Shown one piece after another: positions 28,351 through 63,731 of a stretch of 64,000 bases of DNA. Source of the stretch: Apostichopus japonicus. Its lineage: Eukaryota; Echinodermata; Holothuroidea; Aspidochirotida; Stichopodidae. The stretch covers positions 34,508,668-34,572,667 of the forward strand of contig NC_092569.1 of assembly GCF_037975245.1 (NCBI RefSeq), in the 5' to 3' direction. Under the pieces are notes generated by a model that made no database searches, was not told where the DNA came from, and saw nothing but the letters and a program-made list of their open reading frames with translations. The translations under genes were made by a program, and so were the position numbers. The first letter of the stretch is position 1. Each line of letters opens with the position of its first letter.

Positions 28351-31300
28351 GATTATTCTTTCTTTCAGTTGACTGTGTTCAGAGTCTTGTTCTCTCACTG
28401 GAATGAATTCCTGAAATACAGAAATACAATTGCTGAAGATAAAGTTTTAGAGGATTTGGAGAGGAAGAAGAGGAGGCAGAAGAAGAAAGAGGCTGAACAG
28501 AGGAGACTTGATGAAGAAAAGGTATTAATTAAAATTTATTCATTTTTATTATTAATTAAAGAAAGGAAATGTGACATAATGGTCACTCCACAATGTCAAG
28601 AAAGGAATATTTTAGTCAATTGATTCCTTCAACGACAATAAAAACGAGAGATGAATCTATTAATGGCAGTCTTTACCCTGGCCCAGCTCTGTTGGCTACT
28701 GAGCTGATGGATAATGTTGGTCCTATTTGTCTATATTTCAGGCATATTAACCTGCATACCCCAGTATGTCCACCATCTGTGCCTTAACTCTGTTAGTTCC
28801 TTACATTATGACTATTATAACATGATAAAGTAATTTGTTTCTATTTTCAGGAGCTGAAAGCATCTGTCAGGATGGAGGATGATCGTATGAGCATCAGCTC
28901 CAGGAGGATGTCCCGAATATCAGGTTTATTTGTAGATTTCTTAGAAGAAGAGGAAGACGAAGAAAAGGTCCAGTGGAAATATTCGGAATACGTTAACGGC
29001 TTGGAAAGAGAACAGCAGCTGCTGAATGGAGATGACAGAGCCTCCAGTATCATGTCATGTGAGTACTACTATCGGCCATCAGCTGTTATTGATTCCACAT
29101 GAACAAAATTGCTGGAATGTTTCCTTGTCAATAATTAAATCATTTATCTGGATAGAAAACTTAATATTTGCAGCAAATAGTTGCATTCTGATGAATTCTA
29201 GCTAACTCGCTAACTAACTAACAGTGTTGAATGTTTTTATCTTTTTCTCTCTTATCCTTCCTGATTTTTCTGTATGTTTGTTTCTTGTTTATGAATGCAT
29301 GGTGTAGATGATGATTTGAGATTTGTTTCAATAACATACTGGTTAGATGATGATTTGAGATTTGTATCAATGACAGACTGGTTAGATGATGATTTGAGAT
29401 TTGTATCAATGACAGACTGGTTAGATGATGATTTGAGATTTGTTTCAATGACAGGCTGGTTAGATGATGATTTAGATTTGTTTCAATGACAGACTGGTTA
29501 GATGATGATTTAGATTTGTTTCAATGACAGACTGTTTAGATGATGATTTGAGATTTGTATCAATGACAGACTGGTTAGATGATGATTTGAGATTTGTATC
29601 AATGACAGACTGGTTAGATGATGATTTGAGATTTGTTTCAATGACAGACTGGTTAGATGATGATTTAGATTTGTTTCAATGACAGACTGGTTAGATGATG
29701 ATTTAGATTTGTTTCAATGACAGACTGGTTAGATGATGATTTGAGATTTGTTTCAATGACAGACTGGTTAGATGATGATTTGAGATTTGTTTCAATGACA
29801 GACTGGTTAGATGATGACTTGAGATTTGTTTCAATGACAGACTGGTTAGATGATGATTTAGATTTGTTTCAATGACAGACTGGTTAGATGATAATTTGAG
29901 ATTTGTATCAATGACAGACTGGTTAGATGATGATTTGAGATTTGTATCAATGACAGACTGGTTAGATGATGATTTGAGATTTGTTTCAATGACAGACTGG
30001 TTAGATGATGATTTAGATTTGTTTCAATGACAGACTGGTTAGATGATGATTTAGATTTGTTTCAATGACAGACTGGTTAGATGATGATTTAGATTTGTTT
30101 CAATGACAGACTGGTTAGATGATAATTTGAGATTTGTATCAATGACAGACTGGTTAGATGATGATTTGAGATTTGTATCAATGACAGACTGCTTAGATGA
30201 TGATTTGAGATTTGTTTCAATGACAGACTGGTTAGATGATGACTTAGATTTGTTTCAATGACAGACTGGTTAGATGATGATTTAGATTTGTTTCAATGAC
30301 AGACTGGTTAGATGATGATTTGAGATTTGTTTCAATGACAGACTGGTTAGATGATGATTTAGATTTGTTTCAATGACAGACTGGTTAGATGATGATTTGA
30401 GATTTGTTTCAATGACAGACTGGTTAGATGATGATTTGAGATTTGTTTCAATGACAGACTGGTTAGATGATGATTTAGATTTGTTTCAATGACAGGCTGG
30501 TAGATGATGATTTGAGATTTGTTTCAATGACAGACTGATTAGATTATGATTTGAGATTTGTTTCAATGACAGCATGTCTTATCTGTTTTAGCTATTACCA
30601 ATCTAATGGATGAGAAAGAAGAGGATTCAGTCATCGAAAAGGAACAGGGACAAGACAGGAAGGATGTAAATGGTGAGGATTAGAAACAGATTAAAACAAC
30701 TTAATCATGGATGGGAAGGAATAGGAAAAAATAAATGATACATAGACATCATGGGAAGGCGTGGGAAATATAAATTATACATAGACATAATGGGAAGGTG
30801 TGGGAAAGAATAAATTATACATAGACATCATGGTAGTTTGGAAAAGTGAAGGCAATCATATAAATGGAGTTAATAGCGTTCACAAAACTAAAATAAAAAC
30901 TGTAAGGATGTGAAAGTGTGGACAAAACTAGACACACTACATGGATATTGTAATGTGGATAAAACTGAGAAAAACCACATAGATGTAATAGCATGGACTA
31001 AACTAGACACAATACATGGATGTAATAGTGTGGACAAAACTAGACACACTAAACTGATGTAATAGTGTGGACTGAAGTGAGGCATATTGAATAAAATTGT
31101 TAAAATTAAAGAAGAATTAGAAACTTGATAATGTGTGGAAGGAGCTATGACAAGGCTGGGTGGGGTTACTGGGGTAGTAGTGTCAGCAAAATTACCAAAT
31201 GTAAAGTCTAGATATTTTGGATTAATGATTTCAGCCAGTGATAAGCTTAAGCTGCACATGTACGTATGAGGTCAGGGGCGTCGGGTGGCGACAACAGCTT

Positions 31301-33249: not shown

Positions 33250-34200
33250 AAAAAATGAAATCGCAAATAGCAAAGTCTACTGGTATTTAGCCAGTAGATA
33301 GCCTGAATGTAGCTTGTTCTTGAAGAAAAATAGAAAAGTCTACTGGTATTCAGCAGATGGCCTGAGTGTAGTTCGTTCTCGAAGAGAAATAGAAAGGTCT
33401 ACTGGTATTTACCCAGTAGATAGTCTGAATGTAGCTCAATCTCGAAGATAAATAGCAAAGTCTACTGGTATTTAGACAGTAGATGGCCTGAATGCAGCTC
33501 GTTCTTGAAGAAAAATAGAAAAGTCCACTGGAATTTAGCCAGTAGATAGCCTGAATGTAGCTCGTTCTTGAAGAGAAATAGCAAAGTCTACTGGTATTTA
33601 GACACTAGATGGCCTGAATGTAGCTCGTTCTTGAAGAGAAATAGAATGGTCTACTGGTATTCAGCCAGTAGATAGCCTGAATGTAGCTCAATCTCGAAGA
33701 GAAATAGCAAAGTCTACTGGTATTTAGACAGTAGATGGCCTGAATGCAGCTCGTTCTTGAAGAAAAATAGAAAAGTCCACTGGAATTTAGCCAGTAGATA
33801 GCCTGAATGTAGCTCGTTCTTGAAGAGAAATAGCAAAGTCTACTGGTATTTAGCCAGTAGATAGCCTGAATGTAGCTCAATCTCGAAGAGAAATAGCAAA
33901 GTCTACTGGTATTTAGACAGTAGATGGCCTGAATGTAGCTCGTTCTTGAAGAGAAATAGAAAGGTCTACTGGTATTCAGCCAGTAGATAGCCTGAATGTA
34001 GCTCAATCTCGAAGAGAAATAGCAAAGTCTGCTGGTATTTAGACAGTAGATGGCCTGAATGTAGCTCGTTCTTGAAGAGAAATAGCAAAGTCTACTGGTA
34101 TTTAGCCAGTAGATGGCCTGAATGTAGCTCGTTCTTGAAGAGAAATAGCAAAGTCTGCTGGTATTTAGCCAGTATGTGGCCTGAATGTAGCTTGTTCTTA
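33250..34200. repeat. 63-bp minisatellite, 15 copies
   Basis: The unit contains AAAGTCTACTGGTATTTAGC and recurs every 63 bp from about 33267 to 34151. Because 63 is divisible by 3, long open frames appear on both strands (133 codons on minus). These are a product of periodicity. Confidence 0.95.
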
Positions 34201-36334
34201 AAGAGGAACATTCATTACAGTGCTGTATTAACCAGTCATGGGTTGAGTCAACTAGTTTTCATAATGAAAAATAATTCTCAATTAAATTTTTCATTTTGTC
34301 TGCTTCATTCACTTTACTAATTGTGTCCTCAAATGTATTAATTAGTTATCTGCCAATTAGAACTTGTCTGCTTGTACGGTGTCTGTAAGGAAAAAAGTTC
34401 CTTTCCCATCATATATCTCATTAGCAAAATCAATCCTCAAAACTTTGATATCAAGTTTTCAAACTATAAGCATATCAGGTAAAAGTTTGAAACAAGATGG
34501 TGCTTACTTTTGTACTTCTAACATCAAGAATACTGAACCTATAATTCCATATTTAAATAATTGTTCTTCCGTTTTATACCTCAGCAATAGAAAAAAACTT
34601 TAATGGAAGAAATTCTTAGCTATACAAATTATTTTAAATGCATTTCTCTCAACTTTAGCCTAGTTGTAAGTTACACAGAAAAGCCTGCTGTTAGCCATCA
34701 TATGTAAACAATAAACAAGGAACTAAAATGCCAACATGTTATGAAGAACAGAATGGGGAAAGAAAATTGCATGAATAGTTTGCACAAATCAGCAAAATGT
34801 CTCTTAATGCACATTGGCCTGGAACCCTGCTTTTATTGGTAATATTTTCTCTTTGATTGTATCCTTACTGTACAGCAATTAAGTCTGGTATCTGCTGTTA
34901 TGGATCAAAGCATTCTCCATAAATTAAGATCTGTTTGTATTTAAGATCCATTGTGTTATCTTTAATATATCTTTTGCCATATAAAGCTTGTTTATTTATT
35001 GAAAAATTAATACAATTTATAGTTGAATTGTAAATAAAAAATTCAGTCTTGAGAAGTTTGTGGTCATTATGGAATTGTTTGAAATAGTAATTAATTTGGT
35101 TAATAAGAGGATTGTTACCAAAGATGTAATAATATGTAGATGCACGTTTGATCTGTTTTTATTTGTTTATAAATGTATGTTTTCTGCCTTATATGTTGCC
35201 TCGTAAATTCACCAAAGTTGTTCCTTTTTATTTTAATATGCACCTTGCCTTATTCAGTGCCATTCCGTCCAGTTTGATGTGTGCTAGAATGACAACGGAA
35301 CTTGCAGTGTTTCTGTGTTTTATATTCTATGATTTATTCAATTTTTAAGTAATCTAAGGAAATGTAGCCTAATATCTTTTTCCTGTTTTATTTCTCAGCT
35401 TATTTAAAGTAAAAGGCAGTAACTGTTGTATGATTGATTACTTACTTTAGTTTAATAGAAGTTGCGCAACTTAAACCAAACAGAATCACACGCGCTATGT
35501 GCAGTAACTGGTACAGCTGTAAAGCTCCCACCTAATGTTGTGAACTTGTGATTGTGGTAAATATTAAAACATTAGGAATGGCGGTACTGTAGTGATGTTG
35601 GGTCATAGTTGTCCAAGTGACAAGCTAAAGCTCACCCCCACCCCCCTTCTACTTTTATCCCCATCATCTTTATAGCAAAAGAAATATGAGCTAGTTTAAA
35701 TTTCACAAAAAGAGACCTATAAATACTCAAATTTAATTGTTATAATATCTTTCCTGTATTAGGACCATTCTTTCTAATTGCTGAAAGTCCTAGTTTGCAA
35801 GAAGTGTCTTCTGAGGGTTGAATTCCACTCTCGCCCCCCTCCCAATTAGGAAAACATCCCCTGTGTGGGTAGTGCAGTAAACAAGGTGTTATGATTTAAA
35901 TAGTTAGTGTGATCACCTTTCTGCTGCATGTTAGGACAGTGCAGATGAAATGAAAACAGAATTTTATGAATTATGTTAATCATCAGTGGAGTAATTTACA
36001 CATTATGCTAGTGTTCCTTCCAGAACAATTTGACAACTTATCTGTAAACTGTTCCAGTTAGTCCCATCTACTGAACAATTATTTTGTGATAAGAAGTGTT
36101 TTTCTCTCAATTTTAAGGAAATCCTTTTCTGTCATGAAGGTAATATAAATAGAGTCACATACATTGTCCCATTAATCAATCTTTGTTCACATTTTTGTTT
36201 ACTTTTCTTTCCTTTTCCTGGCATTCAGAGTATAAACCAGGCCTAGCTAATTCCAAGAAGTATCACAATAAATCCTCTTATTACAACCTGCTGCAGAAAT
36301 GTATTATCACCACAGGATTCATTTCCAACCCACT
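34201..36334. other. intergenic, no feature seen
   Basis: AT-rich sequence between two minisatellites. Short open frames lack homology cues. Nothing supported. Confidence 0.4.
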
Positions 36335-49364: not shown

Positions 49365-50019
49365 TCCCTCCCTCCCTCCCTCCCTCCCTCCCTCCCTCCC
49401 TCCCTCCCTCCCTCCCTCCCTCCCTCCCTCCCTCCCTCCCTCCCTCCCTCCCTCCCTCCCTCCCTCCCTCCCTCCCTCCCTCCCTCCCTCCCTCCCTCCC
49501 TCCCTCCCTCCCTCCCTCCCTCCCTCCCTCCCTCCCTCCCTCCCTCCCTCCCTCCCTCCCTCCCTCCCTCCCTCCCTCCCTCCCTCCCTCCCTCCCTCCC
49601 TCCCTCCCTCCCTCCCTCCCTCCCTCCCTCCCTCCCTCCCTCCCTCCCTCCCTCCCTCCCTCCCTCCCTCCCTCCCTCCCTCCCTCCCTCCCTCCCTCCC
49701 TCCCTCCCTCCCTCCCTCCCTCCCTCCCTCCCTCCCTCCCTCCCTCCCTCCCTCCCTCCCTCCCTCCCTCCCTCCCTCCCTCCCTCCCTCCCTCCCTCCC
49801 TCCCTCCCTCCCTCCCTCCCTCCCTCCCTCCCTCCCTCCCTCCCTCCCTCCCTCCCTCCCTCCCTCCCTCCCTCCCTCCCTCCCTCCCTCCCTCCCTCCC
49901 TCCCTCCCTCCCTCCCTCCCTCCCTCCCTCCCTCCCTCCCTCCCTCCCTCCCTCCCTCCCTCCCTCCCTCCCTCCCTCCCTCCCTCCCTCCCTCCCTCCC
50001 TCCCTCCCTCCCTCCCTCC
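49365..50019. repeat. perfect (TCCC)n microsatellite, 655 bp
   Basis: About 164 uninterrupted TCCC units. The minus strand is (GGGA)n, a strong G-quadruplex former. The long Pro/Leu/Ser and Gly/Arg/Glu open frames across it are artefacts of the 4-bp period. Confidence 0.98.
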
Positions 50020-52864: not shown

Positions 52865-53223
52865 CTACACAGGCCGTATTTTCATATCTGTGTATTGAAG
52901 GTTGCATCCATAACTGTTCAAACTAGAACTATACCAGAACATGTGCGTTCCTCGAGTAGAGCCGTCATAGTCTCCGTTGAGGTGAGAATAAGCGCAATAA
53001 GCGCAGTTGTCGCTGCCATCGGGAAAATAATTGCAATAGTAACTATAACCGGGACAATAAGACCGACACTGAGAAGCAGAATAATAACGTCTACAGTCAT
53101 AATAATCGTAGAACCACCAGGCTCCTCTGTGTTCCACAGCACAGTTGTAGCTGCTCCATCCATCGTTGTCCCGGTCTTTTGTACTGAACGGTTTATTGTT
53201 GCTACCAGACAAACGATCATAAC
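52865..53223 (-). CDS. FReD C-terminal exon with Cys/Tyr-rich insertion
   Basis: Begins [20 protein letters not shown], with the DRDND calcium-binding loop, then [12 protein letters not shown]. In ordinary FReDs about nine residues separate WW from LNG. Here 44 residues do, encoded at 52982-53113, very rich in Tyr and with six Cys. The domain then resumes with SHLNGDYDG and finishes YTDMKIRPV before TAG. Acceptor CGCAG/GT, phase 1. Confidence 0.88.
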
Positions 53224-56200
53224 CTGCGACAAACAAGAAAGAGTAAATAAATCGGTCATTTTATATACTTTAAACGAATCCAATATCGGATGTAAAATAG
53301 AGGGCAGTGCGTTTTTGTCCTACCAACATGAAAACGTCAGTTCCGCGAATGTTTTGTTTTTTTGTGTTCAATATTTACGATACATAAGGTGGTATTTTGT
53401 CTTTGCAAGGGAGTTTTTATATACTTTTGTTGTTGTTCCGTTTGAAATACAGCACCACAATAGGAGTAGAATACAGATGGGGAAACCACTTTAACCAAAT
53501 ACTAGGTTTGGGTTACTAGAGTCGCTAATATCGCTCTTTATTTATATTTATTCATCCGCAAGTATTTACAATACTATTCATTCATTTCATTATTTGATTG
53601 TTATTTCTAAGTTCACAACTGATTAGTTTCCTACTCTGTCAAAACTGTAGTTATAAAGTTCTTGTTTGTTGAATAATATAACCCTGTTCTACTGCGTACT
53701 GGGTATTCAGTGTGTTATTGTCATCGATTGTTCAATTATTTACCCTAGATATATAACACTTTGTAATTGGTGTATCTTTCAACCTGAGCTCACACGTTGG
53801 ACTGTAAACGTAGATTGAAATTACACTATACACAAATCATAAAATCAATACTTTTAAATGAAGAATAGAACCGACATTGTATAAACGGAATTTACTATTA
53901 ATGTAGTAGCTAATATTTTAGGTTTCGACAAAGTAACCAAAATTCGATGTATTACATTTATGAAAATCTTGAATGATATTGATTATCGTCTTTTTATTAT
54001 TTAGTTCTTATCGACATGTACTTCTAGTCTCGTACGTATAACTTCTTTGAACAGACTGATTGATTGATTAAAATTTATCGAATCTATACAGACGAATATT
54101 TCAAATAAATCATTTTTGATTCCTCTATTTCAATGTTCTATGCATGATAAACCCTAAATGACTTTTCACATAACATGATTAAATTTAAATAGCGCCTCAA
54201 AGTTTTCACATATGAGAATCATCGAAATATACTTACCACTTAAAGTCACACTATACAGTAACGAGAAGGCACACGTGACATGCTTCCAGTTACTACTAAT
54301 ATGATATTAACCCCTTTGTAAGTTGGAAGTGATGCGAGTTTGGTAGACAACAGCGAGCGGCAAGGCAACAGACATTTACGATAATTTTCAGAATACTCGT
54401 TTAGGTTGGGGTGATAGTGATGTTGAGATTTACTTTCTCTGTGTCAGAAATACATGGACACTGGCTATTATAATATCTACTGCCAAAGTTTTATATATTG
54501 TTAGGTGCTTGTTACGTGCAAACACGGCCAAGAGACTTGTGTTTCCAATGAAAAGCGGATCTTATCGTCTGCTTCTTATGTCTGTACACATTGTATACAG
54601 TCCTGAAACCTACGTGCGTTCCAGTTGTACTTCAAACGCTTGAAAGAAAATAGCAATGTTTGGAATTGAAAATTGCTGTGAACCTTGAACTTAAATATCA
54701 TTTAGCCAGGAATGCGGTAGCTATGAGATCAGGACATTAGTTGTTAGTTGCTTCTCCTAATTCACGTAATCGGTCCAGATTTATGTTTGCGTCAGTGATT
54801 AGAACCATCTATTACTCACCTGTATTTCCGCTGTGTGATCCAACTGATAGTCGATACTTGTTTGCTTGGTTATTAATCCTAAAAGTCGAATAGACGGCGT
54901 ATTTTGATGATGAGCCGGAGTCCCTTAGATCAATACGAAGCTGGTAAGTTTTCTGGTTGGTCAGAGAGTAGATATATTTATTACCTAGCCAGTGGTCATC
55001 ATTTTTATTACCGAAACCGTCCTTGTAGTCCCTCCAACCACGATAAAAGTCAACGGAGGCACTCGATCGTCGTTGGAAAACCTATGAAATAAAAAAGAAA
55101 AGTGAATCCAGCTGTATAATCTAGTTATCCGTAAGAGCATAACATTCAACGCCGTTAGATAGTTAACAAAGATATGGATACTGTGAAAGTGAGATAATTT
55201 GCAATAGTGTTTTGTTTCTTGATTTTGGTTCTTCCTTAAATGGTCAAGTGCATCTCAAAGAGATCTGCAGTGCATCATTTTGAGGAATTTAAAGTATAAT
55301 GTGAGAAAGTTCAGAATTTAAGTCCTTAATTGTTTGCGAAGCTCACCGTCCATCCTCCTCCGTTACTTTCCATCTCACAGTAAACCTGAATACCGCGTGG
55401 CCAACCATCAGGGTAAATGGTGTAAACTCCATCACTGCGTGTACCGGAAATATAAAGCTCTTGGCAATCTTTTGGGACCACCTCGCGGGTGCACGTCACT
55501 CCGTCCCCTTCGTAGTTTGTATTGCAGTAACATTTACGGACACTCCTCCTCGTAGCACAGGTTGCGTGACTACTACACTGGTAACTTTCATCTACAAGTC
55601 GGCTGTTCCTACAAGTTGATTTTCGTGTACATCTTGAATTGATGTAAAAGTGGCCCTCCTGTTTTAAGATATTCAGCAAAAAGAAAAACAACAACTAATA
55701 AATGAATTATGCATTTGCGGTTGTCATATTGAAATGTACCGGATTTCAACAATAAGTGGCCACGTGATTCCCGACTAAACGAAATACATCCCTCGACTGA
55801 AAGGTTTTACTGTATTGGCGACAAAAAACTGGGTCTATAGCCCCTTCACAACCACGATGCGCACGCTACTCGGTTATCTGTAAATGCAATGTAATTATCG
55901 ACAAGTATAAATAGTAAAGGTTTGCTTCTAATTATATGGACAATGATTTAAAAAAAACCATTACAAAATGACCTAAAAGAACCGTACTGACCCCTAATAC
56001 ACTTCCTTTGTCGGCAACGAAGCAGTTGTGGGTGCACGTCACTCCGTCCCCTTGGTAGTTTTGATTACAGTAGCATTTACGGACACCGTTCCTCTCAGCA
56101 CAGGTTGCGTGACCACTACACTGGTAACTCGCCTCTATAATCTGGTTATTTTGGCAAGTTGATCTTCGTGTACATCCTGAATTGATGTAAAAATCGCCAA

Positions 56201-59200
56201 CCTGATTTAAGATATTCATCAAGTAAGAAACAACAAATAAACAAATAATAAATTTGCGGTTGTCACAGTGAAATGTATATGATTTCAACGGTGGGTGGCC
56301 AATGATAAATCCCCTCGAATGATCTAGGTATGGATATGAACCTTTTCGAAAAATATATGAGGTCTTTCAAGCCAACTCCGATGAATGGACGTAGGAATCC
56401 GCCTTAAAAATTGTAGCCACAACTATTGCATTCAACCACTTATCACGACTATATATTAGCCATACAAATGAATCTAACCGCAAGACTGTGAAAAAAGTAT
56501 CCATGAATTTTTGTGTCAGGCTTATAAGTGCATGCACATCCGTAGGAGTGGTCTCGTGATTCCCGAATCAACGTAATATATCCATCGACTGACAGTTTTG
56601 AGAGGACTGTCGACAAAAACAAATGGGTCAATGGCCCTGCCCAACCACGATGCGAACGCCACTCAGATATCTGTACTGTAATGTGATTATCGACAAGTAT
56701 AATAAGTAAAGGTTTCCTTCTAATTATATGTACAAGATTAAGAACAAAGCATTATAAAAATGACCTGAAGGACCGTACTGACCCCTAATACACTTCCTAT
56801 GTCAGCAACGAAGCAGTTGTGGCGGCACGTAACTCCGTCCCCTTGGTAGTTTTGATTACAGTAGCATTTACGGACACCGCTCCTCTCAGTACAGGTTGCG
56901 TGACTACTACACTGGTAACTTTCATGTTCAAGCCGGCTGTTCCTACAAGTTGATTTTCGTGTACATCTTGAATTGATGTAAAAGTGGCCCTCCTGTTTTA
57001 AGATATTCAGCAAAAGGAAAGCCAACAACTAATAAATGAATTATGCATTTGCGGTTGTCATATTGAAATGTACTGGATTTCAACGATGGGTGGCCACGTG
57101 ATTCCCGACTAAACGTAATACATCCCTCGACTGAAAGATTTTACTGTATTGGCGACAAAAAACTGGGTCTATAGCCCCTACACAACCACGATGCGCACGC
57201 TACTCGCTAATCTGTAAATGCAATGTAATTATCGACAAGTATAAATAGTAAAGGTTTGCTTCTAATTATATGGACAATGATTAAAAAAACCCATTACAAA
57301 ATGACCTAAAAGAACCGTACTGACCCCTAATACACTTCCTTTGTCGGCAACGAAGCAGTTGTGGGTGCACGTCACTCCGTCCCCTTGGTAATTTGGATTG
57401 CAGTAACATTTACGGACACCGTTAATCTCAGAACAGGTTGCGTAACTACTACACTGGTAACTCTCATCCACGAGCCGACTGTTCCTACAAGTTGATTTTT
57501 GTGTACATCTTGAATTGATGTAAAAGTGGCCCTCCTAATTTAAGATATTCAGCGAAAAGAAAAACATCAACATCAACTTATAACCGAAATAAACAGAATG
57601 TGTCAGGCTTATCAGTGCATGCACACCCGTAGGAGTGGCCTCGTGATTCCCGACTAAACGTAATATATCCCTTGACTGACAATTTTGACTGGACTGGCGA
57701 CAAAAACAAATGGGTCAATGGCCCCTGCCCAACCACGACGAGCGCGTCACTCGGATAACTGTAAATGTAAAATGAATATTGACAAGTATAAAGAGTAAAG
57801 GTTTGCTTCTAATTATATGGACAATAATTAAGAACGAAGCATTATAAAAAGGGCATGAAGGAACCGAACTGACCCCTAACACACTTCCTATGTCAGCAAC
57901 GAAGCAGTTGTGGGTGCACGTCACTCCGTCCCCTTGGTAGTTTTGATTACAGTAGCATTTACGGACACCGTTCCTCTCAGCACAGGTTGCGTGACCACTA
58001 CACTGGTAACTCGCCTCTATAATCTGGTTATTTTGGCAAGTTGATCTTCGTGTACATCCTGAATTGATGTAAAAATCGCCAACCTGATTTAAGATATTCA
58101 TCAAGTAAGAAACAACAAATAAACAAATTATAAATTTGCGGTTGTCACAGTGAAATGTATATGATTTCAACGGTGGGTGGCCAATGATAAATCCCCTCGA
58201 ATGATCTAGGTATGGATATGAACCTTTTCGAAAAATATATGAGGTCTCTCAAGCCAACTCCGATGAATGGGCGTAGGAATCCGCCTTAAAATTTGTAGCC
58301 ACAAATATTGCATTCAACCACTTATCACGACTATATATTAGCCATACAAATGAATCTAACCGCAAGACTGTGAAAAAAGTATCCATGAATTTTTGTGTCA
58401 GGCTTATAAGTGCATGCACACCCGTAGGAGTGGTCTCGTGATTCCCGAATCAACGTAATATATCCCTCGACTGACAGTTTTGAGAGGACTGTCGACAAAA
58501 ACAAATGGGTCAATGGCCCTGCCCAACCACGATGCGAACGCCACTCAGATATCTGTACTGTAATGTGATTATCGACAAGTATAATAAGTAAAGGTTTCCT
58601 TCTAATTATATGTACAAGATTAAGAACAAAGCATTATAAAAATGACCTGAAGGACCGTACTGACCCCTAATACACTTCCTATGTCAGCAACGAAGCAGTT
58701 GTGGCGGCACGTCACTCCGTCCCCTTGGTAGTTTTGATTACAGTAGCATTTACGGACACCGCTCCTCTCAGTACAGGTTGCGTGACTACTACACTGGTAA
58801 CTTTCATGTACAAGCCGGCTGTTCCTACAAGTTGATTTTCGTGTACATCTTGAATTGATGTAAAAGTGGCCCTCCTGTTTTAAGATATTCAGCAAAAAGA
58901 AAACCAACAACTAATAAATGAATTATGCATTTGCGGTTGTCATATTGAAATGTACTGGATTTCAACGATGGGTGGCCACGTGATTCCCGACTAAACGTAA
59001 TACATCCCTCGACTGAAAGATTTTACTGTATTGGCGACAAAAAACTGGGTCTATAGCCCCTACACAACCACGATGCGCACGCTACTCGGTTATCTGTAAA
59101 TGCAACGTAATTATCGACAAGTATAAATAGTAAAGGTTTGCTTCTAATTATATGGACAATGATTTAAAAAAAACCATTACAAAATGACCTAAAAGAACCG

Positions 59201-62200
59201 TACTGACCCCTAATACACTTCCTTTGTCGGCAACGAAGCAGTTGTGGGTGCACGTCACTCCGTCCCCTTGGTAATTTGGATTGCAGTAACATTTACGGAC
59301 ACCGTTAATCTCAGAACAGGTTGCGTAACTACTACACTGGTAACTCTCATCCACGAGCCGACTGTTCCTACAAGTTGATTTTTGTGTACATCTTGAATTG
59401 ATGTAAAAGTGGCCCTCCTAATTTAAGATATTCAGCGAAAAGAAAAACATCAACATCAACTTATAACCGAAATAAACAGAATGTGTCAGGCTTATCAGTG
59501 CATGCACACCCGTAGGAGTGGCCTCGTGATTCCCGACTAAACGTAATATATCCCTTGACTGACAATTTTGACTGGACTGGCGACAAAAACAAATGGGTCA
59601 ATGGCCCCTGCCCAACCACGACGAGCGCGTCACTCGGATAACTGTAAATGTAAAATGAATATTGACAAGTATAAAGAGTAAAGGTTTGCTTCTAATTATA
59701 TGGACAATAATTAAGAACGAAGCATTATAAAAAGGGCATGAAAGAACCGAACTGACCCCTAACACACTTCCTATGTCAGCAACGAAGCAGTTGTGGGTGC
59801 ACGTCACTCCGTCCCCTTGGTAGTTTTGATTACAGTAGCATTTACGGACACCGTTCCTCTCAGCACAGGTTGCGTGACCACTACACTGGTAACTCGCCTC
59901 TATAATCTGGTTATTTTGGCAAGTTGATCTTCGTGTACATCCTGAATTGATGTAAAAATCGCCAACCTGATTTAAGATATTCATCAAGTAAGAAACAACA
60001 AATAAACAAATTATAAATTTGCGGTTGTCACAGTGAAATGTATATGATTTCAACGGTGGGTGGCCAATGATAAATCCCCTCGAATGATCTAGGTATGGAT
60101 AAGAACCTTTCGAAAAATATATGAGGTCTCTCAAGCCAACTCCGATGAATGGGCGTAGGAATCCGCCTTAAAATTTGTAGCCACAAATATTGCATTCAAC
60201 CACTTATCACGACTATATATTAGCCATACAAATGAATCTAACCGCAAGACTGTGAAAAAAGTATCCATGAATTTTTGTGTCAGGCTTATAAGTGCATGCA
60301 CACCCGTAGGAGTGGTCTCGTGATTCCCGAATCAACGTAATATATCCCTCGACTGACAGTTTTGAGAGGACTGTCGACAAAAACAAATGGGTCAATGGCC
60401 CTGCCCAACCACGATGCGAACGCCACTCAGATATCTGTACTGTAATGTGATTATCGACAAGTATAATAAGTAAAGGTTTCCTTCTAATTATATGTACAAG
60501 ATTAAGAACAAAGCATTATAAAAATGACCTGAAGGACCGTACTGACCCCTAATACACTTCCTATGTCAGCAACGAAGCAGTTGTGGCGGCACGTAACTCC
60601 GTCCCCTTGGTAGTTTTGATTACAGTAGCATTTACGGACACCGCTCCTCTCAGTGCAGGTTGCGTGACTACTACACTGGTAACTTTCATGTACAAGCCGG
60701 CTGTTCCTACAAGTTGATTTTCGTGTACATCTTGAATTGATGTAAAAGTGGCCCTCCTGTTTTAAGATATTCAGCAAAAAGAAAACCAACAACTAATAAA
60801 TGAATTATGCATTTGCGGTTGTCATATTGAAATGTACTGGATTTCAACGATGGGTGGCCACGTGATTCCCGACTAAACGTAATACATCCCTCGACTGAAA
60901 GATTTTACTGTATTGGCGACAAAAAACTGGGTCTATAGCCCCTACACAACCACGATGCGCACGCTACTCGGTTATCTGTAAATGCAACGTAATTATCGAC
61001 AAGTATAAATAGTAAAGGTTTGCTTCTAATTATATGGACAATGATTTAAAAAAAACCATTACAAAATGACCTAAAAGAACCGTACTGACCCCTAATACAC
61101 TTCCTTTGTCGGCAACGAAGCAGTTGTGGGTGCACGTCACTCCGTCCCCTTGGTAATTTGGATTGCAGTAACATTTACGGACACCGTTAATCTCAGAACA
61201 GGTTGCGTAACTACTACACTGGTAACTCTCATCCACGAGCCGACTGTTCCTACAAGTTGATTTTTGTGTACATCTTGAATTGATGTAAAAGTGGCCCTCC
61301 TAATTTAAGATATTCAGCGAAAAGAAAAACATCAACATCAACTCATAACCGAAATAAACAGAATGTGTCAGGCTTATCAGTGCATGCACACCCGTAGGAG
61401 TGGCCTCGTGATTCCCGACTAAACGTAATATATCCCTTGACTGACAGTTTTGACTGGACTGGCGACAAAAACAAATGGGTCAATGGCCCCTGCCCAACCA
61501 CAATGCGCGCGTCACTCGGATAACTGTAAATTTAAAATGAATATTGACAAGTATAAAGAGTAAAGGTTTGCTTCTAATTATATGGACAATAATTAAGAAC
61601 GAAGCATTATAAAAAGGGCATGAAAGAACCGAACTGACCCCTAACACACTTCCTATGTCAGCAACGAAGCAGTTGTGGGTGCACGTCACTCCGTCCCCTT
61701 GGTAGTTTTGATTACAGTAGCATTTACGGACACCGTTCCTCTCAGCACAGGTTGCGTGAGCACTACACTGGTAACTCGCCTCTATAATCTGGTTATTTTG
61801 GCAAGTTGATCTTCGTGTACATCCTGAATTGATGTAAAAATCGCCAACCTGATTTAAGATATTCATCAAGTAAGAAACAACAAATAAACAAATTATAAAT
61901 TTGCGGTTGTCACAGTGAAATGTATATGATTTCAACGGTGGGTGGCCAATGATAAATCCCCTCGAATGATCTAGGTATGGATAAGAACCTTTTCGAAAAA
62001 TATATGAGGTCTCTCAAGCCAACTCCGATGAATGGGCGTAGGAATCCGCCTTAAAATTTGTAGCCACAAATATTGCATTCAACCACTTATCACGACTATA
62101 TATTAGCCATACAAATGAATCTAACCGCAAGACTGTGAAAAAAGTATCCATGAATTTTTGTGTCAGGCTTATAAGTGCATGCACACCCGTAGGAGTGGTC

Positions 62201-63731
62201 TCGTGATTCCCGAATCAACGTAATATATCCCTCGACTGACAGTTTTGAGAGGACTGTCGACAAAAACAAATGGGTCAATGGCCCTGCCCAACCACGATGC
62301 GAACGCCACTCAGATATCTGTACTGTAATGTGATTATCGACAAGTATAATAAGTAAAGGTTTCCTTCTAATTATATGTACAAGATTAAGAACAAAGCATT
62401 ATAAAAATGACCTGAAGGACCGTACTGACCCCTAATACACTTCCTATGTCAGCAACGAAGCAGTTGTGGCGGCACGTAACTCCGTCCCCTTGGTAGTTTT
62501 GATTACAGTAGCATTTACGGACACCGCTCCTCTCAGTGCAGGTTGCGTGACTACTACACTGGTAACTTTCATGTACAAGCCGGCTGTTCCTACAAGTTGA
62601 TTTTCGTGTACATCTTGAATTGATGTAAAAGTGGCCCTCCTGTTTTAAGATATTCAGCAAAAAGAAAACCAACAACTAATAAATGAATTATGCATTTGCG
62701 GTTGTCATATTGAAATGTACTGGATTTCAACGATGGGTGGCCACGTGATTCCCGACTAAACGTAATACATCCCTCGACTGAAAGATTTTACTGTATTGGC
62801 GACAAAAAACTGGGTCTATAGCCCCTACACAACCACGATGCGCACGCTACTCGGTTATCTGTAAATGCAACGTAATTATCGACAAGTATAAATAGTAAAG
62901 GTTTGCTTCTAATTATATGGACAATGATTTAAAAAAACCCATTACAAAATGACCTAAAAGAACCGTACTGACCCCTAATACACTTCCTTTGTCGGCAACG
63001 AAGCAGTTGTGGGTGCACGTCACTCCGTCCCCTTGGTAATTTGGATTGCAGTAACATTTACGGACACCGTTAATCTCAGAACAGGTTGCGTAACTACTAC
63101 ACTGGTAACTCTCATCCACGAGCCGACTGTTCCTACAAGTTGATTTTTGTGTACATCTTGAATTGATGTAAAAGTGGCCCTCCTAATTTAAGATATTCAG
63201 CGAAAAGAAAAACATCAACATCAACTCATAACCGAAATAAACAGAATGTGTCAGGCTTATCAGTGCATGCACACCCGTAGGAGTGGCCTCGTGATTCCCG
63301 ACTAAACGTAATATATCCCTTGACTGACAGTTTTGACTGGACTGGCGACAAAAACAAATGGGTCAATGGCCCCTGCCCAACCACAATGCGCGCGTCACTC
63401 GGATAACTGTAAATTTAAAATGAATATTGACAAGTATAAAGAGTAAAGGTTTGCTTCTAATTATATGGACAATAATTAAGAACGAAGCATTATAAAAAGG
63501 GCATGAAAGAACCGAACTGACCCATAACACACTTCCTATGTCAGCAACGAAGCAGTTGTGGGTGCACGTCACTCCGTCCCCTTGGTAGTTTTGATTACAG
63601 TAGCATTTACGGACACCGTTCCTCTCAGCACAGGTTGCGTGAGCACTACACTGGTAACTCGCCTCTATAATCTGGTTATTTTGGCAAGTTGATCTTCGTG
63701 TACATCCTGAATTGATGTAAAAATCGCCAAC
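52865..63731 (-). CDS. multi-EGF fibrinogen-related protein, 5' end beyond window
   Basis: The three 3' exons (55658-55347, 55081-54820, 53223-52865) join in frame and encode an EGF-like domain plus a complete fibrinogen C-terminal domain (FReD), ending in MKIRPV and TAG. Upstream, 13 further exons of exactly 210 nt, all phase 0-0, each encode a 70-residue EGF-like cassette with 8 Cys. If all were spliced together the visible part would be about 1220 aa. FReD proteins of this type (ficolins, FREPs, tachylectins) are secreted oligomeric lectins of innate immunity; EGF repeats plus FReD also occurs in tenascin-like matrix proteins. Immune recognition is inferred. The start codon and signal peptide are outside the window. 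It is uncertain whether all cassettes belong to one transcript, or whether some are alternative or belong to separate gene copies. Confidence 0.78.
54820..55081 (-). CDS. FReD middle exon
   Basis: Encodes [40 protein letters not shown] and [10 protein letters not shown], hallmark core of fibrinogen domains. Acceptor TTTCATAG, donor GTGAGT; enters in phase 0 and leaves in phase 1. Confidence 0.9.
55347..55658 (-). CDS. EGF-like plus FReD N-terminal exon
   Basis: Starts [16 protein letters not shown] like the E-type cassettes, with [14 protein letters not shown]. Instead of the cassette end it continues [20 protein letters not shown] and [16 protein letters not shown], the start of the fibrinogen domain. 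312 nt, phase 0-0. It looks like an EGF cassette fused to the FReD. Confidence 0.88.
55992..56201 (-). CDS. EGF-like cassette exon 1 (V type)
   Basis: Starts [19 protein letters not shown] core YQCSGHATC...[14 protein letters not shown]; ends GSVLG before GTCAGT. 210 nt, phase 0-0. Confidence 0.75.
56783..56992 (-). CDS. EGF-like cassette exon 2 (E type, RSG)
   Basis: Starts [16 protein letters not shown], contains [15 protein letters not shown] and [11 protein letters not shown]. 210 nt, phase 0-0. Confidence 0.75.
57325..57534 (-). CDS. EGF-like cassette exon 3 (E type, EING)
   Basis: Contains [18 protein letters not shown] and [11 protein letters not shown]. The acceptor is AAATTAG rather than AAAACAG. 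210 nt, phase 0-0. Confidence 0.75.
57874..58083 (-). CDS. EGF-like cassette exon 4 (V type)
   Basis: Near-identical to the V cassette 1882 bp downstream in transcript order; CFVADIG instead of CFVADKG. 210 nt. Confidence 0.75.
58665..58874 (-). CDS. EGF-like cassette exon 5 (E type, RSG)
   Basis: Second array copy of the RSG cassette; RLVHESYQC replaces RLEHESYQC. 210 nt. Confidence 0.75.
59208..59417 (-). CDS. EGF-like cassette exon 6 (E type, EING)
   Basis: Second array copy of the EING cassette. 210 nt, phase 0-0. Confidence 0.75.
59757..59966 (-). CDS. EGF-like cassette exon 7 (V type)
   Basis: Third array copy of the V cassette. 210 nt, phase 0-0. Confidence 0.75.
60547..60756 (-). 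CDS. EGF-like cassette exon 8 (E type, RSG)
   Basis: Third array copy of the RSG cassette. 210 nt, phase 0-0. Confidence 0.75.
61090..61299 (-). CDS. EGF-like cassette exon 9 (E type, EING)
   Basis: Third array copy of the EING cassette. 210 nt, phase 0-0. Confidence 0.75.
61639..61848 (-). CDS. EGF-like cassette exon 10 (V type)
   Basis: Fourth array copy of the V cassette; CSAHATC replaces CSGHATC. 210 nt. Confidence 0.75.
62430..62639 (-). CDS. EGF-like cassette exon 11 (E type, RSG)
   Basis: Fourth array copy of the RSG cassette. 210 nt, phase 0-0. Confidence 0.75.
62973..63182 (-). CDS. EGF-like cassette exon 12 (E type, EING)
   Basis: Fourth array copy of the EING cassette. 210 nt, phase 0-0. 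Confidence 0.75.
63522..63731 (-). CDS. EGF-like cassette exon 13 (V type)
   Basis: Fifth V copy. CSAHATC as in exon 10. The last codon is TGG (Trp) instead of GGG (Gly), directly before the GTCAGT donor. 210 nt. Confidence 0.75.

Follow-up and report, generated by a model that had tools for sequence, protein, structure and literature searches.

The window analysed here is a 64,000-nt stretch of contig C9 of the sea cucumber Apostichopus japonicus (C9:34508668-34572667), which we examined within a genome of 671,581,487 bases in 35 contigs. It contains, on the minus strand, a gene (designated g1) of a cluster on C9 that encodes a fibrinogen-related protein; its head, built on a fibrinogen-related domain (FReD), carries a hypervariable loop and is preceded by a long array of near-identical 210-nt exons, hereafter cassettes. 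Two published A. japonicus primers (PMC4264123) have exact matches in this genome, facing each other in a 102-bp interval at C3:4420638-4420739; other exact or near matches lie close by on C3, and controls with reversed patterns matched nothing, which fits A. japonicus or a very close species. Read 5' to 3', the predicted gene begins with two exons of a truncated FReD, followed by a TIL exon, n cassettes, a fused EGF-FReD1 exon, FReD2, and FReD3 with the stop codon. The features are listed below, with cassettes counted from the FReD; cassettes 1 to 13 are each 210 nt long, bounded by AG..GT, and open in phase 0-0.

52865..53223, minus strand: terminal FReD exon 3 (FReD3), C-terminal part of the fibrinogen-like head, starting in phase 1, stop codon at 52865-52867
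52982..53113, minus strand: hypervariable Tyr/Ser/Cys-rich loop (44 aa, 6 Cys) between GAWW and LNGDY, within the terminal FReD exon
54820..55081, minus strand: FReD exon 2 (FReD2), phase 0 to 1
55347..55658, minus strand: fused exon, last cassette-like EGF (57 aa) and FReD exon 1 (FReD1), phase 0-0
55992..56201, minus strand: cassette 1, type A
56783..56992, minus strand: cassette 2, type B
57325..57534, minus strand: cassette 3, type C
57874..58083, minus strand: cassette 4, type A
58665..58874, minus strand: cassette 5, type B
59208..59417, minus strand: cassette 6, type C
59757..59966, minus strand: cassette 7, type A
60547..60756, minus strand: cassette 8, type B
61090..61299, minus strand: cassette 9, type C
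61639..61848, minus strand: cassette 10, type A
62430..62639, minus strand: cassette 11, type B
62973..63182, minus strand: cassette 12, type C
63522..63731, minus strand: cassette 13, type A
C9:34580009-34580218, minus strand: cassette 24, beyond the window, in the extended sequence of the locus
about C9:34580670-34580881, minus strand: TIL exon, beyond the window, joining in phase 1
within about C9:34581738-34582549, minus strand: truncated FReD, two exons, beyond the window

An earlier note on this DNA had described thirteen frame-neutral 210-nt exons at 55992-63731, upstream of an EGF-FReD module. All thirteen were recovered at that length and phase on the minus strand, with AG before and GTCAGT after each of them, and EGF_3 and Fibrinogen_C were found to share one fused exon. 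The array is cut by the window edge, and a total of thirteen was rejected when the sequence past that edge was read: the full array comprises 24 cassettes over 15.6 kb, extends to window-equivalent position 71551, and has introns of 332-582 nt between cassettes. Counted from the FReD, it consists of six A-B-C trimers, then A'A'' dimers, and then one edge cassette beside the upstream exon. The trimer period is 1.88 kb (2.0 kb for the sixth trimer); trimers 1-5 are 98.5-99.9% identical over the whole period and trimer 6 is approximately 96% identical to the others, and the A'A'' dimers form a second period of 1577 bp with 99.8% identity. The near identity of the 1.88-kb periods supports the recent amplification proposed in the earlier note, and the graded identity of the trimers fits repeated unequal exchange within the array.

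The same exon format recurred throughout the cluster. Among 74 cassette-like matches in ten genes, 63 were bounded by AG..GT at exactly 210 nt; the other 11 were ten fused terminal EGF-FReD exons and one cassette lacking its 5' end in a broken gene (g2). The donor GTCAGT and eight cysteines were present in all 63 full cassettes, 62 of which were open. The symmetric phase-0 cassettes of the earlier note are supported. When the genome was searched with one cassette, 150 of 1038 candidates were scored; all 150 were located on C9, and 149 of them had no stop codon.

Pfam analysis identified the cassette as a TILa plus EGF_3 unit, and the idea of a plain EGF array was rejected. In two cassettes scanned alone, EGF_3 was matched with E-values of 3.5e-10 and 5.1e-8, and TILa with 5.3e-6 (just under the cut-off) and 1.5e-6 (over the cut-off). 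Against a TILa cut-off of 27, the scores were 28.7 for a type A cassette, 29.4 for a construct in which the TIL exon was joined to its cassette, and 26.9 (just under) for type C; the TIL exon itself scored 18.3 on the TIL profile, below the cut-off of 24.5. In the joined construct, the TILa match began before the exon junction and ended after it. Therefore, as we infer from the match coordinates, a TILa domain should be reconstituted at each cassette-cassette junction, irrespective of the cassettes joined. The label "EGF exon" in the earlier note was accordingly correct for EGF_3 but incomplete, as it omitted a TILa domain apparently rebuilt across each junction. The EGF part has the spacing C-x11-C-x5-C-x8-C-x-C-x10-C, and a cassette profile searched against PDB sequences at an E-value of 0.01 matched only two uromodulin sequences (E 0.0016 and 0.0025), in the EGF part only.

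The joined head exons scored 181.3 bits on the fibrinogen domain PF00147 (cut-off 22), with a match that spanned residues 5-174 of the 253 and so reached as far as the loop. The truncated N-terminal FReD, which was present in all six complete genes of the region, scored 120.1 bits on the fibrinogen profile; no FReD3-like exon was detected at the threshold used between it and the next exon in these six genes. In these six genes, a conserved exon starting MENCFKVCLTVLTIWNSFGTEM is located further 5'; it resembles a signal peptide exon and is a candidate for one. A scan for conserved open exons between this exon and the first FReD returned ten short candidates, none of which was convincing or longer than 58 nt. 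Among the exon products scanned, no IgSF domain was matched at an E-value of 1, and the linker candidates scanned were too short for an Ig domain.

The number of cassettes differed among gene copies by whole units. In nine genes we counted 24, 4, 3, 1, 1, 5, 6, at least 12 (cut by the locus end), and 7 cassettes. Two copies approximately 678 kb apart, C9:34712436-34721639 and C9:35390001-35400000, were 99.80% identical over 9204 aligned bases and carried 5 and 6 cassettes, respectively; the sole internal gap of at least 10 bases between them was 795 bp, corresponding to one cassette plus its intron. The sister gene g3, with 98.1% identity to g1 in FReD2, has the order C-A'-A''-edge, that is, 4 cassettes versus 24 in g1. 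Its cassettes are 96-99% identical to their counterpart types in g1, and two of its three cassette spacings are equal to those in g1 (661 and 785), the third being 805 versus 785. The gain or loss of complete cassettes anticipated by the earlier note is thus seen between gene copies. The block from g4 to g7 (C9:34645000-34722000) seems to recur at C9:35323000-35400000, approximately 678 kb away, with identical loops in the four last exons compared; this recurrence seems to reflect a recent segmental duplication or a retained haplotype.

The earlier note had also suggested that such a layout could give a modular, individually variable recognition protein. Our analysis did not bear out the idea of the cassettes as the variable recognition surface: the mean column entropy of 38 distinct cassettes was 0.40 bits, and dN/dS was approximately 0.51 among 15 distinct cassettes of the window gene, so that the cassettes look constrained. 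We rejected them as carriers of recognition diversity, because they are a conserved part of the gene; the variability is found instead in the loop of the terminal FReD, a feature absent from the earlier note.

Alignment with PDB sequences placed this loop where FIBCD1 has the segment GAWWYRNCHTSNLNG. The window gene has approximately 36 residues inserted there, and the His after the Cys of the FIBCD1 segment is replaced. The short loop at this place, which we take to be part of the canonical ligand site, measures 8 residues in FIBCD1 and in all three FReD loci of the same genome, out of eight considered, in which the segment was readable. To describe the loop across the family, 60 last exons were chosen by hand, mostly from the upper half of 150 matches that had been scored out of 744 candidates and of which 147 lay on C9, and are not a random sample. 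Together with 8 from the first region, 58 of these (L088 and L090 were left out) gave 66 last-exon sequences, in which 65 loops were delimited, the 5'-truncated g4b being the exception; four of the 65 are repeats from the duplicated block. By the same measure that gives 8 residues for FIBCD1, the loops were 32-49 residues long, and 61 of them were distinct. Their composition was 23.5% Tyr, 13.7% Cys, and 12.6% Ser, with 6 Cys in 44 loops and 4 Cys in 14; 62 were open and 3 contained stops. Across 57 sequences, the mean column entropy was 1.42 bits in the loop versus 0.63 in the rest of the exon. Cys 63, 73, and 76 of the loop were nevertheless invariant, Cys 52 was present in at least 90%, and Cys 56 had a low entropy of 0.3.

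L090 (C16:28519420-28519770), a FReD exon located on another contig, has a Cys-rich insertion of a different kind in the position of the loop; therefore, loop expansion may have arisen in more than one subfamily. L016 (C9:34645683-34645925), downstream of g4, is another copy of FReD3, truncated at its 5' end so that it begins immediately behind the GAWW position; a partial match of the same kind was obtained at C9:35323472. Both are probably relics of a last-exon duplication.

The loop diverged more than its surroundings. In the main clade (45 of 48 genes), mean nucleotide identity was 0.915 in FReD2, 0.867 in FReD3 outside the loop, and 0.672 in the loop. In alignments of g1 with g3 and of g2 with g6, identity was 0.71-0.77 across the loop; within the intron it was 0.78-0.92 in the stretch next to the exon and 0.84-1.0 closer to FReD2, and in the downstream 3' flank it was 0.85-0.97 until homology ended. 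Relaxed constraint by itself would not be expected to make a coding loop diverge beyond its non-coding neighbours. The Tyr runs were mostly TAT repeats (116 of the 125 codons located in runs of at least four, the longest having nine), which suggests slippage. The g2/g6 pair was 99.6% identical in FReD2, 80.3% in FReD3, and 65.9% in the loop, a contrast suggesting that genes have exchanged their last exons. In the 45 main-clade genes, FReD2 and FReD3 had a rank correlation of 0.06, versus 0.19 for a control comparing FReD2 halves, and 0.36 versus 0.45 in all 48 genes; a strong conflict between FReD2 and FReD3 was rejected, because the control correlation was low too.

Substitutions were compared in 17 independent close pairs, after the exclusion of loops interrupted by stops, of sequences in which fewer than 20 residues preceded the loop, of pairs with unequal loop lengths, and of pairs with identities above 0.995 or below 0.80. 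The dN/dS ratio was 0.65 in the loop (bootstrap 0.51-0.88) versus 0.37 in the flank (0.26-0.59), and the loop-to-flank ratio of pN was 2.0 (1.4-2.9), with a Fisher p of 0.018 computed from rounded counts. As 0.65 is below 1, we rejected positive selection on the loop as a proven result. Pooled dN/dS of seven exon classes, with the broken g2 left out, was 0.31-0.67; as judged from these ratios, the coding sequence of the seven classes and of the cassettes is under constraint.

We consider it fairly probable that the locus represents a single member of a large tandem family of fibrinogen-related, lectin-type proteins that provides germline-diversified recognition through a variable head and an adjustable stalk. 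The predicted protein would consist of a truncated FReD, TIL, n TILa-EGF units, EGF, and a full FReD. As the cassette boundary would lie inside TILa and in phase 0, any cassette could succeed any other with TILa rebuilt, and near-identical repeats that undergo unequal crossing over or conversion could therefore gain or lose whole cassettes with the frame left intact. Such changes would alter the length of the stalk and hence, presumably, its reach and avidity. Recognition diversity would reside mainly in the last exon, where a loop of 32-49 residues, hypervariable and Tyr/Ser-rich apart from some invariant cysteines, would take the place of the short loop. It would arise in the germline as genes duplicate and, probably, exchange their last exons, together with slippage at TAT codons and substitution. 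The encoded proteins may be secreted, bind ligands, and serve in immunity.

Echinoderms carry very large immune-type gene families and are not known to have antibodies. The family described here would represent a concrete, testable route to germline diversity that combines a conserved scaffold, a Cys-framed hypervariable loop, and a stalk whose length changes exon by exon. We also put forward, tentatively and as something that may well not hold, a broader view in which dozens of lectin genes form an echinoderm germline repertoire resembling antibody loops: a Cys-framed Tyr/Ser-rich loop on the ligand face of the FReD, frame-neutral stalks, last exons exchanged between genes, and loops and stalks that differ between individuals.

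Several observations weigh against a germline-diversified recognition family. The comparison with the intron comprises two pairs, one of which includes the broken g2, and large gaps in the intron segments were left uncounted; a conversion tract could also produce a local dip in identity at the loop. The low control correlation leaves the exchange of last exons only suggestive. Loop dN/dS does not exceed 1, and relaxed constraint together with slippage could contribute. Some members are broken: a cassette of g4 and the loops of L034 and L039 are interrupted by stops, and in g2 (C9:34602133-34605402) the only cassette lacks its 5' end and acceptor, the loop contains a stop, and no upstream exons were found. 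The two 99.8% identical copies might be retained haplotigs and not two loci, and the scan for an exon linking the candidate signal peptide exon to the first FReD gave no convincing candidate. Moreover, conservation does not extend to Cys 43 of the loop (entropy 1.0). Structure predictions of single exons were too poor to support any fold and neither support nor exclude a knob: the mean pLDDT was 46.8 and pTM 0.33 for the last exon alone, which is half a domain (57 sequences), and 47.2 and 0.34 for the cassette (38 sequences).

The splicing model of the earlier note, in which each gene yields many stalk isoforms per animal by alternative splicing of symmetric cassettes, as in Dscam or tenascins, appears rather doubtful as the main explanation. 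Skipping would keep the frame, since the 63 full cassettes are 210 nt long and in phase 0-0, and one g4 cassette contains a stop codon, which the transcript could avoid only by skipping it. The cassette donor GGG/GTCAGT is also weak in computed U1 pairing, at -7.6 kcal/mol versus -14.3 for the FReD2 donor. However, the donors of the TIL exon (-6.4), the first exon of the truncated FReD (-5.2), and EGF-FReD1 (-8.3) were computed to be equally weak, and a donor common to all 63 cassettes marks none of them for skipping; among near-identical cassettes, skipping would alter length more than specificity. It is unlikely that the genes encode extracellular-matrix or adhesive proteins of wound closure and visceral regeneration, with the stalk as a spacer and the Tyr/Cys-rich loop as a cross-linker. 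Such loops could cross-link, and uromodulin, the only PDB match of the cassette profile at an E-value of 0.01, is an extracellular filament protein. Further points in the same direction are the reported up-regulation of A. japonicus FREPs in regeneration (PMC5638244) and the combination of EGF repeats and a C-terminal FReD, which recalls tenascins (PMC11401434), as far as the consulted parts of these two reports go. A cross-linker, however, needs no 61 different loops in 65 with variable residues between fixed cysteines, and by alignment the loop sits at the place of the short loop that in other FReDs presumably forms the ligand site.

We regard neutral tandem amplification of decaying genes, whose loops and arrays vary through lost constraint, as improbable. 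The raised loop dN/dS, although below 1, the broken members, and TAT slippage are in line with it. Yet open frames are kept in 62 of 63 cassettes and in 62 of 65 loops, 57 sequences share three invariant loop cysteines, pooled dN/dS is 0.31-0.67 in the seven exon classes, and the excess of loop divergence over neighbouring non-coding DNA in two gene pairs is not given by relaxed constraint alone. An assembly artefact, in which collapsed, expanded, or haplotype-duplicated repeats would create the apparent array and the difference between 5 and 6 cassettes, is very improbable. Near-identical periods make assembly difficult, C9 contains two pieces approximately 678 kb apart that are 99.8% alike, and the PacBio reads of the published assembly average 14.7 kb according to the consulted part of its report (PMC10344927), if that is the assembly used here, versus an array of 15.6 kb. 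On the other hand, the periods differ in a graded way, the array has unique ends (the edge cassette and the A'A'' block), one trimer is far shorter than a 14.7-kb read, and cassettes occur in differing numbers across nine genes. Even if the two copies were haplotigs, the difference of one unit would be allelic.

Expansion of FREP genes in A. japonicus and their up-regulation in regeneration have already been published; cassette arrays, TIL/TILa units, a truncated N-terminal FReD, and a hypervariable loop are not mentioned in the consulted part of that report on the same species (PMC5638244). In partly consulted reports, a fibrinogen-like transcript was up 2.58-fold in coelomocytes 4 h after LPS (PMC4264123), and in another sea cucumber an intestinal FREP was LPS-induced and unchanged in coelomocytes (PMC2702171); none of the FREP transcripts in the accessible text of these three reports was tied to the family of the window gene. 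Neither the cassette array nor the loop features were described in the open-access literature searched, so far as its texts were available, with subscription papers and supplements lying outside the search. With this family, the FREP expansion reported for a farmed animal that regenerates becomes a specific structural hypothesis, and the 99.8% identical copies that differ by one exon unit provide a natural case for the study of exon-array evolution.

Mollusc FREPs and FReMs (PMC7588048, in the portion consulted) are likewise a lectin-like multigene family with a C-terminal FReD, and the FReM architecture of EGF-like followed by FReD is found here, with the array, TIL/TILa, and a second FReD in addition. 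FReM was reported as a single gene in that snail. Mollusc FREPs have one or two IgSF domains, whereas the exon products scanned here gave no IgSF match and do not show the mollusc-type combination of IgSF and FReD; here it is the FReD that varies, and an array of TILa-EGF units forms the stalk. Tenascins, as described in the consulted part of PMC11401434, share EGF-like repeats, single-exon repeats that vary in number (FN3 in tenascins), and a C-terminal FReD. However, the tenascin EGF spacing C-x3-C-x5-C differs from that of the cassettes, and the FN3 repeats between EGF and FReD are absent here, EGF and FReD1 being in one exon; the same text reports that no tenascin was found in the echinoderms searched.

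Among PDB sequence matches, FIBCD1, ficolins, and techylectin-5A belong to the same FReD family by sequence, and the stretch KDRDND, which we take to be the Ca site, is kept. The knobs of bovine ultralong CDR H3, as described in the partly consulted literature, offer an analogy in their long Cys-framed loop with variable residues, but those are recombined antibody loops, whereas here the loops belong to germline gene copies, lie in a FReD, and are known from sequence alone.

Elsewhere in the window, a perfect (TCCC)n run of 655 bp occupies 49365-50019. Two satellites were detected, one with a 39-bp unit in 33 copies (96% matches; 29300-30572) and one with a 63-bp unit in 15 copies (87% matches; 33265-34205). 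An open frame at 2709-3098 matches an SMP-30/gluconolactonase/LRE-like region (Pfam SGL, 1.6e-14).

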